Part shown: in pieces, positions 1-6,836 of the stretch
How positions within the stretch are numbered: the first letter of the stretch is position 1
Layout: every line of letters starts with the position of its first letter
Assembly (NCBI RefSeq): GCF_902459645.1
Contig: NZ_CABPSK010000004.1
Location: forward strand, 186,001 to 250,000
Direction: 5' to 3'
Source: Pandoraea pneumonica
Lineage (GTDB): Bacteria > Pseudomonadota > Gammaproteobacteria > Burkholderiales > Burkholderiaceae
DNA length: 64,000 nucleotides
The notes under the pieces: model-generated
What the model was told of the DNA's origin: nothing
What the model saw: the letters and a program-made list of their open reading frames with translations, nothing else
Database searches by the model: none
Translations under genes and position numbers: made by a program

Positions 1-1009
1 CCGCCGTTGCCGCAATCGCAATCAGGAACGTGACAGCCAGCACACTCGTGAAGCCCAGACGATCGATCACACGGCCCAGCAGCAGCGTGCCGATCACACC
101 GCCCGTCCACAGCGCAGTGCCCGCCATCACAGCCACTTGCGTCGAATAACCGGCGTCGCGAATCACCGTCGGCAGCCAATTCGACAGGAAGTACATATCG
201 AGCAGGTTGGCGAAGTTGATCACCCAAAGCAGCAGCGTCATACGCGCGCGGCCATCCTTGAACAACTCGATGAACGGCACGCCCTTGGCCTTCTGCTCGT
301 CGAGCACGAAGCGCGCGTCGGCAGGCAGATTCGCCGCCGGGGCCACACGCTGCAATTGCTTGCGAATGCGCGCGGTGTCGCTCTTCTTGAACATCAGGAA
401 CTGAATCGACTCAGGCAGCGAAACCCACATCAGGAAGCCGAGCACCAGCGGAATCGCGCCGCCGATGAAGAAGACTGCGCGCCAGCCCAGACTCGGGATG
501 ATCGCCGCCGTGATCAGGCCGCCGACCACGCCGCCCAGCGTAAAGCCGCACGACACCATCATCATCAGCGAAACACGGATGCGACGCGGGCTGTATTCGC
601 CCGCAAGCGCCATCGCGTTCGGCATGATGCAGCCCAGACCCAAGCCAGCAGCAAAGCGCCAGACGACGAGTTCGGTGATCGAGTTGGCAAAGCCGGTCAC
701 GATCATGCACACCGCGAAGAACAGCGTCGCGCCGATGAGCACCGGGCGGCGGCCCAGCTTGTCGGCCAGCGCCGAGAACGTGAGCGAGCCGACCAACATG
801 CCGAACAAGCCTGCACCGAACACCGGCGACAGCGTTTCCTTCGCAATACCCCACTCGCGAATCACGACCGGGGCCACGTAGCCCATCGCCTGCACGTCGA
901 AACCGTCGACGACCAGACACATCGCGCACAGCGCAATCACCCACCACTGATAGCCGCCCAGACGGCTCTCGTCGATCAATGCGCCGACATTCACTTCTGC
1001 TGCTTTCAT
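1..1009 (-). CDS. MFS transporter, aromatic acid:H+ symporter (AAHS) type, 3' part missing
   Basis: This is an inner-membrane secondary transporter of the major facilitator superfamily, probably importing an aromatic acid with protons. About 336 N-terminal residues are visible and the C-terminus lies beyond the window. After a short cytoplasmic N-terminus the first helix is followed by VVDGFDVQAMGY, the acidic D-G-F-D motif typical of the PcaK/MhpT group. The ADKLGRRP loop between helices 2 and 3 matches the MFS signature. The ATG at 1009 has GGAGA nine bases upstream on the minus strand. The substrate cannot be named from sequence. The nearest gene downstream of its promoter, a thiol dioxygenase at 1250-1858, is transcribed the same way but 240 bases away, so an operon is uncertain. 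Confidence 0.85.
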   Translation of the reverse strand, partial: MKAAEVNVGALIDESRLGGYQWWVIALCAMCLVVDGFDVQAMGYVAPVVIREWGIAKETLSPVFGAGLFGMLVGSLTFSALADKLGRRPVLIGATLFFAVCMIVTGFANSITELVVWRFAAGLGLGCIMPNAMALAGEYSPRRIRVSLMMMVSCGFTLGGVVGGLITAAIIPSLGWRAVFFIGGAIPLVLGFLMWVSLPESIQFLMFKKSDTARIRKQLQRVAPAANLPADARFVLDEQKAKGVPFIELFKDGRARMTLLLWVINFANLLDMYFLSNWLPTVIRDAGYSTQVAVMAGTALWTGGVIGTLLLGRVIDRLGFTSVLAVTFLIAIAATA

Positions 1010-1249
1010 CCTGTCTCCAAACGTTCTTGTCACTGCGTTCCTGTCGATGACGCCGACGGAATTACGCTTTGCGGAAGTTTATCTCGCGGAACGTAATTCG
1101 ATGCTTGGTGTTAACACTTAGATTCCCACGGCAAACGGCCATAGGCATCACCGGCCGAAAAATGGACGGTGATGGGCAAGCAATGTTGGGAAAAACCGAG
1201 AAGAACCGCTGAATAGACGCGATCGACGCGAGAAGGCGGGAGGTGCTGG

Positions 1250-1858
1250 TCAGCCGCCGACGAGATTCGGCTCGGCGGGATTGGCGTAGCCGGAGACGAA
1301 ATGACGGCGCGTACCGTCAGGCAGATAGACGGAGCGTGCTACGCGGCCGATGTCTGCACCGTAGACGTGGATGCTGATCGACACACGATCGTCGAACGCG
1401 TTGCGCACTTGGTGGATATCGCCGAGGGAGGGAGAAACGGCTTCGACACTACCGGGCACGAGCCTGATCGGGTCGCCTGCGGTGACGAGTTGCCCGTCGG
1501 CGTTGAACGCAAACGGCAGCGAGTCTTCGGCACCGCGCAGCATGCCGATCAGCCCCCATACCGTGTGGTCGTGCACCGGCGTGGACTGCCCTGGTCCCCA
1601 GACAAAGCTCACGACGCTGAAGCGGGCTTGCGGGTCCACGTAGAGGCGGTATTGCGTGTAGCGCGCCGGATCGGGCTGCGCGTAGGCCTCGGGCAACCAC
1701 GTGTCGCCAGCCACAAGCGTCGCTAACGCCGCGCTGCCTTCGGTCACGATCGTGGCTTCGTCCGGCTGGCGATCGAGCAACGCCGCCAAAGTAGTGACAA
1801 ACGTCCGAAGCGGCGCGAGCGAATCCTGATGAGCGTTCACTTTGTGGTTTTTCTCCAT
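1250..1858 (-). CDS. Cupin-fold thiol dioxygenase (cysteine / 3-mercaptopropionate dioxygenase family)
   Basis: A 202-residue cytoplasmic protein with the mononuclear-iron cupin core of the cysteine dioxygenase family, which oxidises small thiols to sulfinates with O2. The first metal motif is visible as PVHDHTVWG (two histidines about residues 96-98). A third histidine lies in GDIHQVRN, and the SIHVYGADIG segment resembles the SIHVYG signature of bacterial thiol dioxygenases. Length fits the bacterial family. The substrate (cysteine or 3-mercaptopropionate) cannot be decided here. The ATG at 1858 has no strong Shine-Dalgarno sequence, so a slightly shorter start is possible. Confidence 0.82.
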   Translation of the reverse strand: MEKNHKVNAHQDSLAPLRTFVTTLAALLDRQPDEATIVTEGSAALATLVAGDTWLPEAYAQPDPARYTQYRLYVDPQARFSVVSFVWGPGQSTPVHDHTVWGLIGMLRGAEDSLPFAFNADGQLVTAGDPIRLVPGSVEAVSPSLGDIHQVRNAFDDRVSISIHVYGADIGRVARSVYLPDGTRRHFVSGYANPAEPNLVGG

Positions 1859-1987
1859 ATGCGCCGTGGGAAGTCGCCTTGCACACGCACCTTAGAGGTA
1901 TATCAGGCGGCGTATTGGGCGATTTCGGTCCAAAAAAGCGACGAAATGTCGCAGTTGTGGTTTTTCTACATATTTTTTCGTCGCAGG

Positions 1988-2018
1988 TTTACCCGTTCAG
2001 GGATTTCCCTGATATAGT
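1988..2018 (+). promoter_or_regulatory. Candidate promoter with operator palindrome in the -35/-10 spacer
   Basis: A TATAGT hexamer (2013-2018) resembles a sigma-70 -10 box, and TTTACC (1988-1993) is a weak -35 at 19-base spacing. Between them is a perfect inverted repeat, TCAGGGATTTCCCTGA (1997-2012), with 7-bp arms around TT. A repressor bound there would occlude polymerase. It would drive the small-RNA candidate that follows. The promoter elements are imperfect; the palindrome is plain. Confidence 0.45.
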
Positions 2019-2020
2019 TG

Positions 2021-2084
2021 CACCTGTCTCCTCCACCTCCTCCTGGTGGATTTCACGGCCAGCAACGCGCTGGCCGTTTTTTTT
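2021..2084 (+). ncRNA. Candidate small RNA with CU-rich anti-Shine-Dalgarno segment
   Basis: About 64 nt lie between a promoter-like sequence and a strong Rho-independent terminator, with no + strand gene upstream that the terminator could serve. The 5' part is CU-rich (CTGTCTCCTCCACCTCCTCC, 2024-2043), complementary to ribosome-binding sites. Its end forms a small hairpin CCACC-tcctcct-GGTGG (2033-2049) that displays CCUCCU in the loop. The second hairpin is the terminator. The arrangement of a C-rich hairpin plus a terminator hairpin resembles known CCUCC-motif sRNAs of proteobacteria (inference). It could instead be a leader or attenuator of the lipoprotein gene that begins 120 bases downstream. 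Confidence 0.5.
2055..2084 (+). terminator. Strong Rho-independent terminator
   Basis: A perfect 9-bp stem ACGGCCAGC / GCTGGCCGT with a 5-base loop is followed by eight T residues. It faces the + strand, although the gene upstream is on the minus strand, so it must terminate a short unannotated transcript. Confidence 0.9.
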
Positions 2085-2205
2085 GCCTGTCGATTTCGCA
2101 TCGGTGCAACCCGCGCCGCACGGCTAACGGATCGTAATGCAAATGCGCGTCGATCTCGTGGCGCACGCCCTCGGTACCGCGATTTCCTGCGTTACACTCC
2201 TCGCC

Positions 2206-2886
2206 ATGAAAATCGCTCCGCTCGCTACCCTGCTCTGTGTCTTACCGCTCGCCGGTTGCTACGTCGTGCAATATCCGGGCGGTGCGCTGACTTTCTCGCA
2301 AGATCCTAACGCGCCGCAAGCGTTGCGCGCAGCGCCTGGCTCGGTCGGTGCTGCGGGCGATGTTTCCACCGCACCCGTGCCGACACCGACGGTTTCAGCC
2401 GCGCCTATGCAGGCGCAACCGGCGCCCAGCGTTAGCATGCCGCCTCCGCCGCCGGGCAAGTCGGCTCGACAAGCGTATCCGAATGGCTCATCGGTGCCGC
2501 CGGACTATCGGCCGGGTCGTGGCACCACGCCACCGGTCTATCCGAATGGTTCGCCGGTACCACCGGATTACCGTCCATCGCCGCAAAGCGCGCCGGTGTA
2601 CCCCAACGGTTCGCCGGTACCGCCTGATTATGTGCCGCCACAATCGCAGCAGATGCCGTCGGGCGGCCCCGTGTACACGACTTATCCCGCGTATTCGGCC
2701 TATCCGACATATGCGACATACCCGACGTATGCGCCTTACCCCGCATATGCTGCATATCCGAACTACGCACCGTTTTACCCGGGCTTCGCCCCGTCGCCAT
2801 GGCTCAGCAACGTGTCGCTCTCGTTCTCATGGGGACGCGGTTGGGGTGGGGGCTGGGGTGGGCACTGCTGCCGACGCTGGCACTAA
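2206..2886 (+). CDS. Proline/tyrosine-rich repeat lipoprotein
   Basis: A 226-residue envelope protein. The N-terminus has a short hydrophobic segment ending in LAGC, a lipobox that predicts signal peptidase II cleavage before Cys19, so this start is preferred over an in-frame ATG at 2137. After a low-complexity Ala/Pro linker come three copies of a PNGS(S/P)VPPDY motif, then a run of YPxYA-like pentapeptides (YPTYATYPTYAPYPAYAAYP), and a C-terminus rich in Gly and Trp ending in CCRRW-H. No enzyme domain is visible. The composition suggests an extended surface or cell-wall-spanning structural lipoprotein, but the function is unknown. Confidence 0.75.
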   Translation: MKIAPLATLLCVLPLAGCYVVQYPGGALTFSQDPNAPQALRAAPGSVGAAGDVSTAPVPTPTVSAAPMQAQPAPSVSMPPPPPGKSARQAYPNGSSVPPDYRPGRGTTPPVYPNGSPVPPDYRPSPQSAPVYPNGSPVPPDYVPPQSQQMPSGGPVYTTYPAYSAYPTYATYPTYAPYPAYAAYPNYAPFYPGFAPSPWLSNVSLSFSWGRGWGGGWGGHCCRRWH

Positions 2887-2902
2887 ACGCGCCAGCCGGC
2901 CC

Positions 2903-3169
2903 TCAATGGGTGACCGGATGCTCGCGAGCGACGCGATCTTCGATGCGTCGCTCGATGCGTTTGCGGATTTGTTCGGCAGCCAGCGACGCATCGTCGGCTT
3001 CGATGCTCGAATACTCGCATCGCCCGATGTAATGCCCCTCTGAGTAAGCATCGACGGCGCCATCGAAGCGGTCGTCGGCGCGCGGCGTGACCGCGCCCTC
3101 AAGGTCGAACGGCACGCCCGGTGCCGTGTCGCTTACGTAATGCCAAGAAAAACGAAAAGATTTGTCCAT
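2903..3169 (-). CDS. Small conserved-looking hypothetical protein (88 aa)
   Basis: A compact acidic/basic protein without signal peptide or membrane segment. The N-terminal part (MDKSFRFSWHYVSD) is followed by an aromatic/acidic middle and an amphipathic Arg/Glu-rich C-terminal helix (AAEQIRKRIERRIEDRV). It converges on the lipoprotein gene, with 16 bases between the two stops. I do not recognise the family. Codon use and the absence of a better alternative frame support it as real. Confidence 0.55.
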   Translation of the reverse strand: MDKSFRFSWHYVSDTAPGVPFDLEGAVTPRADDRFDGAVDAYSEGHYIGRCEYSSIEADDASLAAEQIRKRIERRIEDRVAREHPVTH

Positions 3170-3506
3170 ATGTCCCCCATCTGCAATCGACAGCTATGGC
3201 AACGCGAGACCAATGCTGTTTTTTGGTGAATCCTAACATGTTCACAAAACACGACGCATCACCGGAAAAAAAGCGGCCCGCCAGAACGGCGAGCCGGATA
3301 GTCCGTGGAGGTCGGGGGCACATCAGGACCACGGTCATTCCAATCTAGCGCCGAATGCGTGTCGTTATTCTCGGTAATTCGCCGGATATAACGAAAATAA
3401 CCGTTACGAAATCTTGCAAACGATTGCTCGCACCACACCATTGCGTGAATCAAATTGCCAACAGTTAATCGTATACGGTTTGTCGTAAATTCACGCTCAT
3501 GCAGAT
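3170..3506. other. Intergenic region (337 bases)
   Basis: No convincing gene is seen. The left part should contain the promoter of the 88-aa gene and includes GTGAA-N10-TTCAC (inverted repeat). A hairpin with an adjoining A-tract (T-tract on the minus strand) at 3266-3297 probably terminates the EAL gene. The right part is AT-richer and holds a CGTATACG palindrome. Confidence 0.5.
3266..3297 (-). terminator. Probable terminator of the EAL-domain gene
   Basis: The imperfect hairpin CGGC-cc-GCC-loop-GGC-ga-GCCG is followed on the minus strand by seven T residues. It lies 210 bases downstream of the EAL stop codon. Confidence 0.5.
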
Positions 3507-5093
3507 TTAAGTGACAGGTTGCGCATCGCCTTCCATGACTTTTATCAGCATTTCCGCCGACGGCAATTCATCCGCCGGCACAGCCTTGCCGAATAGCCAT
3601 CCCTGCCCCACCGCCCCCGGACACTGCGCGAGCATGTAATCGGCCTGTGCTCGCGTTTCCACCCCTTCCACGATCACGCCCACGTTCAGCAGCGCCGCCA
3701 TCTTGCAGATTTGATCGACAATCGCGCTGCCTACCGCATCGGCACCAATGGCCTGTGTGAACATGCGATCGATCTTCAACGTATCGACGTGCAGCGTCGA
3801 CAGATAAGCCAGATTCGAAAAGCCCGTACCGAAATCGTCGATATGAATCTGATAGCCATCCACTCGAAGGCGGTCGAGTGCGTCGCCAAGCCGTTTCATG
3901 CTGTCGGTCGAACGCTCGGTAATTTCAAGCGCAATTTGCGAACGCGGCACACGTAATGACGCCGCAATGTGATTCAAAAACACGTGGAAGGATTTGTCGA
4001 CGATATCTTCGGCGGCGAGATTAATGCTGATATGAAACTCGGGATCCGCCAGCGCGCGCCCGTGCATATCGATGAGCGCGCGACGCGCCACCTGACGGGT
4101 CACCAGTCCGATCACCCCCTGCCGCTCGGCAATAGGGATAAACATCTCGGGCGAGATGGGCTGGCCCGCACTGTCGCTCAGACGTGCCAGCGCCTCCACG
4201 CCGACGAGCTTGCGATCATGCAGGCGAACCAGCGGCTGGTACACAACGTTGATGCCTCCGTTTTCGGCGGCATGCTGAGTCACCCAATCGACGGACATCC
4301 GATAACGCTTGCGCGAGCGCCAAGACATCCCCATGGCACCACCGAGCGCAGCCCCGATGGCAAAGGCCAACGCGAGCCCGATCGGGTTACGCAACACGCT
4401 CGACGACGTGTAGACCGCCGACGCGCAGACATCCACCACGTCGGAGCAGGTCGAATACCGCCGCAACGGTCCGATGTCGAACCAGCGCGACGTAACGCCT
4501 AGCTCGATTCGGCGCTGATCGTCGAACATGCCCGCGCGCCAGAACTGAAACCGTTTGTCATTCGTCGATGCGATGGAGGCAAAGCCTGGGTCCGGCGTGG
4601 CGAAACGCGGCGGCAAAACGGGTGAGCTGAACACCACGATGTCGCCCCACCCCGTCGCATCGACCTGCACGCCCGGCGTCACCACGCCGGTGATCGTGTG
4701 CCAGAGCTTCACGCCATTGAGCGTCTCGTGGCTAGGTTCCGGCAGAACAGGGGCAGGCTCGATCTTGCCAAGCATGGCCGAGCAAAGCAGCTTCGAATTG
4801 TGCACGCGCCCGATGTCATGAAAATAAGGACTGCGCATCGCGACGCGCCGCAAGTCGAGAATGTCGGCATCCGTACAAGGCGTTTCGGCATTCTGCGGCG
4901 CTTGAAACAAGGCATTGCGGCGTGAGAGCGACGCGTCGTTCATGTAGCCCATGATGTCGCGCACAAACGCACGCAGACGAAAGTCATCGACACGCGTCTG
5001 CACCACCTGTGCCGCGATCAAGACGACGATCATGCCGACGATCGCACCGACAAGCACCGGCAGCCAACGGGTCAGCCTTTGAAGTGTCTGCAT
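3507..5093 (-). CDS. CSS-motif EAL-domain cyclic-di-GMP phosphodiesterase
   Basis: A 528-residue inner-membrane enzyme predicted to hydrolyse c-di-GMP. An N-terminal helix (about residues 10-32) is followed by a periplasmic CSS-type sensory region with TPCTDAD and the LLCSAMLGK segment, a second helix (about 240-260), and a cytoplasmic EAL domain. Catalytic signatures are intact: EALARL, INLAAEDI, EITER, DDFGTGFSNL, KIDR and EGVET. CSS-EAL proteins are regulated by redox state of periplasmic cysteines (family knowledge). The start at 5093 places the helix immediately after MQTLQRL. The frame stays open to 5252, and no start has a strong ribosome site, so the N-terminus is uncertain. Confidence 0.9.
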   Translation of the reverse strand: MQTLQRLTRWLPVLVGAIVGMIVVLIAAQVVQTRVDDFRLRAFVRDIMGYMNDASLSRRNALFQAPQNAETPCTDADILDLRRVAMRSPYFHDIGRVHNSKLLCSAMLGKIEPAPVLPEPSHETLNGVKLWHTITGVVTPGVQVDATGWGDIVVFSSPVLPPRFATPDPGFASIASTNDKRFQFWRAGMFDDQRRIELGVTSRWFDIGPLRRYSTCSDVVDVCASAVYTSSSVLRNPIGLALAFAIGAALGGAMGMSWRSRKRYRMSVDWVTQHAAENGGINVVYQPLVRLHDRKLVGVEALARLSDSAGQPISPEMFIPIAERQGVIGLVTRQVARRALIDMHGRALADPEFHISINLAAEDIVDKSFHVFLNHIAASLRVPRSQIALEITERSTDSMKRLGDALDRLRVDGYQIHIDDFGTGFSNLAYLSTLHVDTLKIDRMFTQAIGADAVGSAIVDQICKMAALLNVGVIVEGVETRAQADYMLAQCPGAVGQGWLFGKAVPADELPSAEMLIKVMEGDAQPVT

Positions 5094-5374
5094 AGCAGTG
5101 GGTGTGTCCCCAGAGCGCCCCGGAGCCCAACGGGGCATGGCCGCAGTGTAGCCTACCTGCCCGCTCGCAACGTACCCGTCGCCTATATACATCGGATTGC
5201 CACACGATGACCCCGCGCATGCGCCATCGCGTCCCGTCACGTGGCCTTCCACCGCTCACCAATGCCCCCGTGCGGCCCGCCCGGCAAGGCTCGGCAGGCG
5301 CGCCGCAGTGGGACGAAATGGGGTCGGCTCAGGTGTAACGTGATGGCTTCCATCACACCGCCTCCGAGTTTGCA

Positions 5375-5893
5375 ATGACACTGAAATTTCGCAATCCCGC
5401 GAACGGGGACGTCGTTGAAATTTCGCATCTGTCATGCGTGGCGGCCTTCTTTCTCGGCCCGCTCTATCTGCTCGCCTACGGGTTCACCTGGCATGCCATC
5501 GTCTGGGTCGTCCTCGCGTTTGGCCCGGCGCTTGTATGGCACGAATCGGCGTTGGCCATCTCGTTGCCTTTCACCTGCTTGCTGTACTCGCTGATGATTC
5601 ACCCGCTGCTGGTGAACAAACTGCGCGCGCAGGGCTGGTTGCCCACACGCGGCGAAACGCTGGCGAACCCGAGTCAGCGCGGCTACGGCGACTATGCCGA
5701 CGACGGCCGGTCGAGCAGTACGGGGCGCTCGCTCACCGGCATCGTGCTCGCGCCCACGCAACGCTCATCTTCGACAGTGCCTGCCGTAGCGACGATTACG
5801 ACGGTGGCAACAGTGGCAACGGTCGCAGCAAGGCCGGGGCCCGTCGGCGCCCCTAGCACGCGCGCGGCCAACGAGACGCCGATCAGCGAGTAA
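5375..5893 (+). CDS. Small inner-membrane protein with Thr/Val/Ala-rich tail
   Basis: A 172-residue protein. Residues about 18-90 form two or three hydrophobic helices (FFLGPLYLLAYGFTW, IVWVVLAFGPALVW, a third ending near LMIHPLLVNKL), followed by a hydrophilic tail with TITTVATVATVAA. The amino-terminal NPANGDVVEI segment and GPLYLLAYG resemble small DUF2628-like membrane proteins, but I cannot assign a function. It is divergent from the EAL gene. Its stop lies 31 bases from the convergent LysR stop. Confidence 0.7.
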   Translation: MTLKFRNPANGDVVEISHLSCVAAFFLGPLYLLAYGFTWHAIVWVVLAFGPALVWHESALAISLPFTCLLYSLMIHPLLVNKLRAQGWLPTRGETLANPSQRGYGDYADDGRSSSTGRSLTGIVLAPTQRSSSTVPAVATITTVATVATVAARPGPVGAPSTRAANETPISE

Positions 5894-5924
5894 GACACGC
5901 CGTCACAGCGCGCCGACTACGCCA

Positions 5925-6836
5925 TCAGTCGACAGACGTCGCGTCGCTTTCCGCCCCGCCCGACGGGCACATCGCAATGAATCGATCGAGGGCCGCCGAA
6001 CCATGCGCGGCTCGATACGCGAGACTGATCGGCGCACGCGGCACGTCGCCATCGATCGGCCAGAAGCCCATACCGGGCGTGCGAATCTGACTGACCGACG
6101 CCGGTACCAGCGACACACCGAAGCCTGCCGCGACCATCGGCACAATCGAAGTGATTTGCGGCGCTTCCTGCCCCAGCTTGGGCCGAAATCCGGCTGCCTC
6201 GCACGCCGCAACCGTGCGGTCGTACAGCGCCGGGCTGATCTCGCGTGGCAGCAGAATGAATTCGTCCTGCGCCAGCGCGGCAAGCGGCACGCGCTCACGC
6301 GCGCACATCGGATGCCCCAGCGGCAGCACCAGCACCATCGCTTCGTCGACCACCGGAACGCTCACGATCCCCGGCGGCGCATCGACTGGTGTGCGCACGA
6401 ATGCCGCATCGACCTCCTCGTTCACCAACGCCGCCAGCAGACTCGCTGTATTGCTTTGTTGCGGATGAAGTTGCACGTCCGGATAGCGCGCACGGAAATC
6501 GCGAATCCATGCCGGAATGGTCGGCTCGAAGTACGTTGCCCCGGCAAAACCGATACGGATATGGCCAGCGTCGCCGCGCGAAATCTGCTGCATCTGCCGC
6601 TTCACGCGCTCGACGCGCTCCAGAATATGACGCGCTTCCGGCAAGAACGCCTCGCCCAATTCGGTGAGCACCACATCGCGCGGCAAGCGCACGAAAAGTG
6701 GCCCGCCGAGTTCCTCCTCCAACTGCCGAATCTGAAGGCTGAGCGGCGGCTGCTGAATACCGACACGCGCCGCCGCCCTCGTGAAATGCCGCTCTTCGGC
6801 CACTGCAATGAAATATTGCAAATGCCGCAATTCCAT
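5925..6836 (-). CDS. LysR-family transcriptional regulator (divergent from CoA-transferase)
   Basis: A 303-residue DNA-binding regulator. The winged helix-turn-helix is at residues 1-60 (RHLQYFIAVAEERHFTRAAA, then QPPLSLQIRQLEEELG), followed by a linker helix and a periplasmic-binding-protein-like effector domain (about 90-290). The FTRAAARVGIQQPPLS form groups it with the BenM/CatM/HcaR-like branch that responds to small carboxylates (inference). It is transcribed away from the acetyl-CoA hydrolase/transferase gene, with a 232-base shared spacer containing an 18-bp near-palindrome, so it probably regulates that gene and itself. Confidence 0.92.
   Translation of the reverse strand: MELRHLQYFIAVAEERHFTRAAARVGIQQPPLSLQIRQLEEELGGPLFVRLPRDVVLTELGEAFLPEARHILERVERVKRQMQQISRGDAGHIRIGFAGATYFEPTIPAWIRDFRARYPDVQLHPQQSNTASLLAALVNEEVDAAFVRTPVDAPPGIVSVPVVDEAMVLVLPLGHPMCARERVPLAALAQDEFILLPREISPALYDRTVAACEAAGFRPKLGQEAPQITSIVPMVAAGFGVSLVPASVSQIRTPGMGFWPIDGDVPRAPISLAYRAAHGSAALDRFIAMCPSGGAESDATSVD

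Follow-up and report, generated by a model that had tools for sequence, protein, structure and literature searches.

Positions 2025-2084 on the plus strand of the window (the whole 64-kb stretch of DNA that was analysed) are a known RNA, a member of the Rfam family RF02278 (Betaproteobacteria toxic sRNA, "double-hairpin RNAs"), and not a new family. The best explanation, which we consider very probable, is a trans-acting small RNA of this double-hairpin family. Infernal with Rfam 15 matched the element over the full model (1-64 of 64) at 53.8 bits, which barely exceeds the cut-off of 50, and the only other match above cut-off in the 64-kb window was a tRNA at 32 kb. The initial annotation had proposed a free-standing small RNA with anti-Shine-Dalgarno (anti-SD) segments. 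This core idea is right and is borne out by the full-length Rfam match, by near-invariance in 30 genomes with decay outside the element and by base-pair changes that keep its first stem. It is not new, as the sRNA family is already in Rfam and in print; with the finding placed there, it can no longer be claimed as a new regulator. The family name reportedly goes back to Kimelman 2012. The window copy has the traits of RF02278: two hairpins, the second being a terminator with T-tract, a 5' UGUCUCCUCC and a CU-rich loop, and several homologous copies per genome (four copies, three above cut-off). It differs from the model in stem 1, which has 6 bp here and 8 bp in the model. The features of the region are:

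1..1009, minus strand: presumed MFS transporter gene (the name is our reading of the sequence, not from a domain scan), cut by the window end; possible target, with an SD GGAGACAG complementary to the sRNA 5' end
1250-1858, minus strand: cysteine dioxygenase type I-like gene (PF05995), between the sRNA and the MFS gene
1988..1993, plus strand: -35-like hexamer TTTACC (30-genome comparison; 3/6 positions invariant)
1997..2012, no strand: inverted repeat TCAGGGA-TT-TCCCTGA, candidate operator (sequence)
1999..2010, no strand: genus-wide invariant core AGGGATTTCCCT (12/12 positions invariant, 30 genomes)
2010..2018, plus strand: extended -10 TGA-TATAGT (sequence, alignment)
2025..2084, plus strand: sRNA RF02278 (53.8 bits, model 1-64), with a probable start at about 2024-2026
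2024..2031, plus strand: unpaired 5' end CUGUCUCC, anti-SD segment 1 (fold)
2032..2050, plus strand: hairpin 1, 6 bp (fold; changes on both sides at pairs 5 and 6)
2038-2044, plus strand: loop UCCUCCU, anti-SD segment 2 (fold)
2055..2084, plus strand: intrinsic terminator with 9-bp stem, 5-nt loop and T-tract (terminator scan, fold)

The hairpins, the terminator, the T-tract and the TATAGT box noted in the initial annotation are all present. Between TATAGT (2013-2018) and the end of the T-tract at 2084 lies an element of 60 nt on the plus strand, and the terminator hairpin proper spans 2055-2077, followed by T's to 2084. The RNA from 2024-2084 folds at -27.8 kcal/mol compared to a shuffle mean of -12.41 (z -5.94), and 0 of 200 shuffles were as good. 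The CU-rich stretch at 2028-2043 had been placed in a hairpin loop, which is correct for UCCUCCU, the only CU-rich segment within the loop, but not for CUGUCUCC, which forms the free 5' end, or for UCCACC, which sits in the stem. Base changes in both arms of the hairpin, at pairs 5 and 6, support that stem 1 is maintained. Among 89 unique RF02278 sequences from the fetched loci, pair 5 was C-G in 40, U-A in 44 and U-G in 4 (88), and pair 6 was C-G in 42, G-U in 39 and G-C in 5 (86); these counts were made per sequence from single folds, because the 3' arm of the window copy's stem is displaced when 29 sequences are aligned with MAFFT. CCUCC occurs in the loop of 63 of the 89. In the ORF list two putative ORFs span the region on the plus strand, one of 62 aa at 1829-2017 and one of 82 aa at 1879-2127; both are probably chance.

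Membership of three other sRNA families was considered and rejected. The element scored 18.7 bits for MmgR (RF00519; cut-off 41, E 0.12). CcsR1 (RF02791) is named after a CCUCCUCCC motif to which the window sRNA is similar, yet the score of 16.8 bits (E 0.094) is far below the gathering score of 65.3. SorX (RF02784), which also resembles the window sRNA, gave 17.7 bits versus 46.6.

The own genome contains four RF02278 copies, all with E 9.5e-8 or better: A (69.3 bits), B (67.3), C, the window copy (53.8), and D (46.1), which is below cut-off. They are dispersed and have different promoters. The covariance search in related genomes that the initial annotation had suggested found RF02278 in 31 of 32 genomes of the genus, and an orthologue of the window copy, recognised by a score of 53-55 bits together with its promoter, in 30 of 32. 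It is missing from two genomes, one of 1.2 Mb and one of 3.6 Mb that is split into about 500 contigs. RF02278 is present in 114 of 130 genomes of the wider family, and the combined pattern of promoter and sRNA occurred in 30 of 299 family genomes, every one in the genus; the exact combination was found in 19 named records, all Pandoraea. When the window was aligned with 29 orthologues (30 genomes), 52 of the 60 sRNA positions were invariant, as were all 12 of the dyad core and 14 of the 16-mer, compared to 8 of 56 at 1931-1986 and 0 of 26 after the terminator (2085-2110). The conservation of the dyad is notable relative to its flanks. The spacing between TATAGT and UGUCUCC is unchanged in 28 of the 30 genomes, and the other two, which are divergent, have TATTAT in its place.

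The reading as an anti-SD sRNA is supported by published relatives, since these are expressed and one of them represses by pairing at a target leader. Two papers on B. cenocepacia describe four RF02278 transcripts found by dRNA-seq (ncS03, ncS05, ncS27 and ncS62), of which three RF02278 RNAs tested by qPCR were up in biofilm, starvation and glucose medium (PMC4603805, PMC5688073). They also report that ncS27 overexpression slows and silencing speeds planktonic growth, which was interpreted as metabolic repression, and they describe an upstream motif for three Burkholderia copies in Fig. S3 (PMC4603805, PMC5688073). A review states that NcS27 affects phenylalanine, tyrosine and carbohydrate genes (citing Sass 2019), and the 2017 B. 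cenocepacia paper states that the regulator of RF02278 RNA accumulation is unknown. The window copy is like the Burkholderia ncS RNAs in its 5' UGUCUCCUCCA, CU-rich hairpin loop, terminator, length of about 60 nt and intergenic position, and the multi-copy state is alike, with three to five RF02278 copies in each Burkholderia genome. Unlike them, it has a genus-specific dyad promoter. The relative S17 of Bordetella pertussis (PMC11722255) is Hfq-dependent and represses BP2158 by pairing in the leader, where compensatory mutations at site 1 restore repression, and two other target candidates showed no effect. S17 has a 5' anti-SD site 1 and a loop site 2, like the window copy, and represses near ribosome-binding sites. 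A difference is that S17S comes from a 190-nt precursor by cleavage, while the window copy has promoter-like sequence immediately in front of the short form.

Judging from the sequence and these relatives, sigma-70 polymerase would use the extended -10 TGATATAGT, with transcription beginning at about 2024-2026 and ending at 2084. Base pairing of the free 5' CUGUCUCC and the loop UCCUCCU with Shine-Dalgarno regions, probably with the help of Hfq, would then prevent translation of genes for transport and catabolism, as shown for a few targets of the relatives. mRNAs whose SD resembles GGAGGAGACA are those on which the window RNA would, by homology, be expected to block initiation.

The promoter has a spacer of 19 nt between the -35-like TTTACC, which reads TTAACC in part of the genus, and the -10 TATAGT. 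A simple sigma-70 scan of positions 1-6000 that requires a spacer of 16-18 nt gave no promoter at all. TTGCACC as a sigma-54 element was discarded on visual inspection; TTGC is not kept across all species. The initial annotation described a perfect 16-bp palindrome between the two hexamers. The sequence TCAGGGATTTCCCTGA at 1997-2012 consists of 7-bp arms that flank a TT which is not self-complementary, so the term perfect does not hold, and since the 64-kb window contains 12 inverted repeats with arm 7 and spacer 2, the dyad alone is not beyond chance. The exact TCAGGGANNTCCCTGA occurs at the sRNA locus in only 4 of 32 genomes of the genus (G000, G015, G016, G022); in most species the left arm is TCTAGGGA and therefore only AGGGATTTCCCT is common to the species. 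The 17-mer AGGGATTTCCCTGATAT was found with at most 2 mismatches in 30 of 32 genomes, as a single site in 27 of those 30. The proposed operator remains a candidate; the shorter core is genus-wide and also found beside a GntR/FCD gene in 3 of 5 genomes. The dyad fills the spacer up to the -10, and a protein bound to AGGGATTTCCCT would most likely repress the promoter.

A dyad inside the long spacer TTTACC-19-TATAGT could also be the site of a MerR-type activator that untwists the promoter, rather than a repressor operator. MerR-type promoters have spacers of 19-20 nt, with the dyad centre about 8.5 nt from the -35. Here the distance is 11.5 nt and the dyad is off-centre in the spacer; only half of the -35 is invariant, the two most divergent genomes have lost it, and the same core adjoins a GntR-type, not a MerR-type, gene. 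We therefore consider activation of this kind improbable. Somewhat less improbable, but still unlikely, is a start further upstream: the dyad would then form an additional, third hairpin in a longer precursor, from which the 60-nt form is made by trimming. There are precedents among the relatives, as RNase E shortens the 190-nt S17L to 67 nt (PMC11722255) and ncS27 is processed (PMC4603805, PMC5688073), and the whole 97-nt stretch folds well (z -5.49). However, the -10 keeps its distance to UGUCUCC in all 30 genomes when both hexamers are counted, and most species retain the core alone, which would give a short hairpin.

The family name and the growth inhibition of E. coli by cloned relatives, cited in PMC4603805 and PMC5688073, could point to a toxin RNA of a toxin-antitoxin pair. 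This seems very improbable given four dispersed copies with different promoters and the reading of the ncS27 growth effects as metabolic repression; moreover, according to PMC11722255, S17S is not toxic in E. coli and the name "toxic" may thus not fit the family. Even less probable is a role as leader or attenuator for the downstream gene, which lies on the same strand 121 nt past the T-tract with its start placed at 2206, because a strong terminator intervenes, conservation ends at this terminator and only 20 of 29 orthologous loci gave a match to the protein encoded downstream, a count limited by short flanks. A free-standing, trans-acting sRNA with a putative repressor site in its promoter remains our preferred reading.

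Further occurrences of the dyad were sought in the genomes. A search of the own genome for the 16-mer with at most 2 mismatches gave 8 sites versus 6 for the reversed control, and the idea of a dyad regulon was rejected. Two near-matches in the own genome are at L022 and L023. A general GGG-N4-CCC in the RF02278 promoters of other genera was rejected as well (5 of 58 versus 0-5 of 58 in control windows). The exact 16-mer was also present elsewhere in G001, G009, G019 and G027, with one place orthologous among the four (exact TCAGGGA-N2-TCCCTGA at L058, L059, L062 and L064, position 1501), and was not found away from the sRNA in the other 28 genomes of the genus. The shared place is beside or within the start of an ORF that reads like a FAD-dependent oxidase, and its conservation says little because the surrounding DNA is 92-97% alike.

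The pattern AGGGANNTCCCT occurred 10 times in five genomes: five times at the window sRNA, three times at one orthologous intergenic region between a GntR/FCD gene and an MFS gene (G000, G020 and G028), and once each at single places in G023 and G020. G003 has no second dyad of this pattern and the second one in G023 is at an unrelated place. With the reversed pattern as control there were 0-3 occurrences per genome, similar to the 1-3 of the pattern itself. The orthologous region retains ATAGGGAWWTCCCTA, and its dyad reads ATAGGGA-AA/AT-TCCCTA (L165:1501-1512, G000:C1:703240; also L168 and L170, with identical or near-identical core). The distance from this dyad is 46 bp to the start of the divergent gene, which encodes GntR and FCD domains (L165 766-1455 in G000), and 120 bp to the MFS transporter gene. 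G000 and G028 have the same 12-bp core here as at the sRNA promoter, and the proteins of the locus share 80-82% and 91% identity with their counterparts in the other two genomes. NCBIfam gave no name above cut-off for the regulator. Regulators of the GntR/FCD kind often bind their own divergent promoter. Since the divergent promoter region of this one has the same dyad core, it is the best candidate for a repressor that would bind the dyad at the sRNA promoter.

The sister copies have other promoters, many of which carry a different motif. PhbF/PhaR is the repressor of polyhydroxybutyrate. In many sister-copy promoters TTGC-N3-GCA-N-CA is present near the -35; read on the opposite strand, it corresponds to the PhbF consensus TG[N]TGC[N]3GCAA (PMC3206438). 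The promoters compared were those of L001, L002, L029-L057, L094-L103 and L180-L218. Among 39 promoters from outside the genus, hand-picked from the RF02278 matches listed, the strict motif occurred in the 110 nt upstream in 19, compared to 0-4 in seven control windows, and the loose TGC-N3-GCA in 25, compared to 1-9 in controls and 0-2 for five other dyads. Within the genus, the unique promoters of copy A had the loose form in 24 of 24 and the strict form in 20, and those of copy B in 14 of 14 and 7, respectively. For copy D this was 1 of 10 and 0; these counts leave out one locus without anchor. The window-copy promoters lack the motif (30 orthologues: strict 0, loose 1). Of 31 genus loci, 26 had the strict motif in a control window 200-310 nt upstream. 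About 270 nt upstream of copy A lies another strict PhbF-type motif (L001:1234, G000:C2:1279535), before a divergent OsmC-family gene.

The own genome encodes PhaR (PF07879), as do 113 of 130 genomes of the family. Of these 130, 110 have both PhaR and the sRNA, 13 have neither, 4 the sRNA only and 3 PhaR only; as 10 of the 13 genomes with neither are of 1.2 Mb or less, genome reduction may explain the co-absence. Several results speak against a PhaR link. The motif is missing despite PhaR at all 8 matches of two g15 genomes (three of these matches are below the family cut-off), and also in G035, G049 and one of two G051 matches. PhaR was not found in G081 (83% complete), which has the motif at 3 of 3 copies, two of them strict. 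In favour of the link, the PhaR-negative G065 (0 of 2), G032 (0 of 1) and G070 (0 of 1) are without motif. Against it, in the whole own genome TTGCRNYGCANCA was not enriched, with 50 sites versus 46 for the reversed control; of these 50, 30 loci were examined and 20 neighbouring ORFs scanned. A PhbF-type motif on both strands is present 68 bp before a PHB depolymerase gene (PF06850; L227/L228, G000:C1:1753226).

The different promoters of the sister copies suggest that the copies answer to different signals with the same targeting module. The promoter comparison yields candidates for the input, namely the GntR/FCD protein for the window copy and PhaR for many sister copies. We tentatively propose that the anti-SD sRNA copies of Burkholderiaceae share targets and differ in signals, many being repressed by PhaR/PhbF, a sensor of polyhydroxybutyrate, while the window copy was rewired to GntR/FCD; this is possible rather than probable, and the idea is testable but unproven. 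If true, the PhaR/PhbF-repressed copies would rise during carbon storage and then shut down carbon uptake, and the GntR/FCD regulator of the window copy, which adjoins an MFS transporter gene, would use the same dyad at both places. It would also parallel the repression of MmgR, which is outside RF02278, by AniA/PhaR in rhizobia. According to PMC8401924, AniA/PhaR represses mmgR in S. meliloti, and the mmgR promoter has a dyad between -35 and -10. The alphaproteobacterial MmgR resembles the window sRNA as a short trans-encoded sRNA with such a dyad, and it is linked to carbon-storage control (PMC8401924, PMC9049629). A link between PhaR and RF02278 was not found in the open-access literature, including a search for PHB words in the available text of PMC5688073.

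Targets of the window sRNA are likely to be recognised by their SD. GGAGACA precedes the start of the neighbouring MFS gene in 25 of 25 alignable orthologues (4 of the 29 fetched loci were without usable match). Within the window GGAGACA before ATG had 4 matches versus 0.79 expected, and target prediction has little power because this is a common SD form here. A duplex-energy ranking of the window ORFs gave no clear winner. The own genome has 6 matches to GGAGGAGACA-N0-9-ATG (control 0), one of which is sRNA copy D in reverse; three of the other five begin an MFS transporter, an ABC permease and a Phenol_MetA_deg protein, and the last two begin ORFs of 22 and 70 aa. Cysteine dioxygenase was rejected as a fixed partner of the sRNA, as it occurs within about 1.3 kb in 7 of 29 orthologous loci. 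Near-identical TTGTGGTTTTTCTNCATAT sequences are located at 1841-1860, at the start of the cysteine dioxygenase gene, and at 1953-1975 in the intergenic region, and a hairpin GCGACGAAATGTCGC lies beside the latter at 1938-1952.
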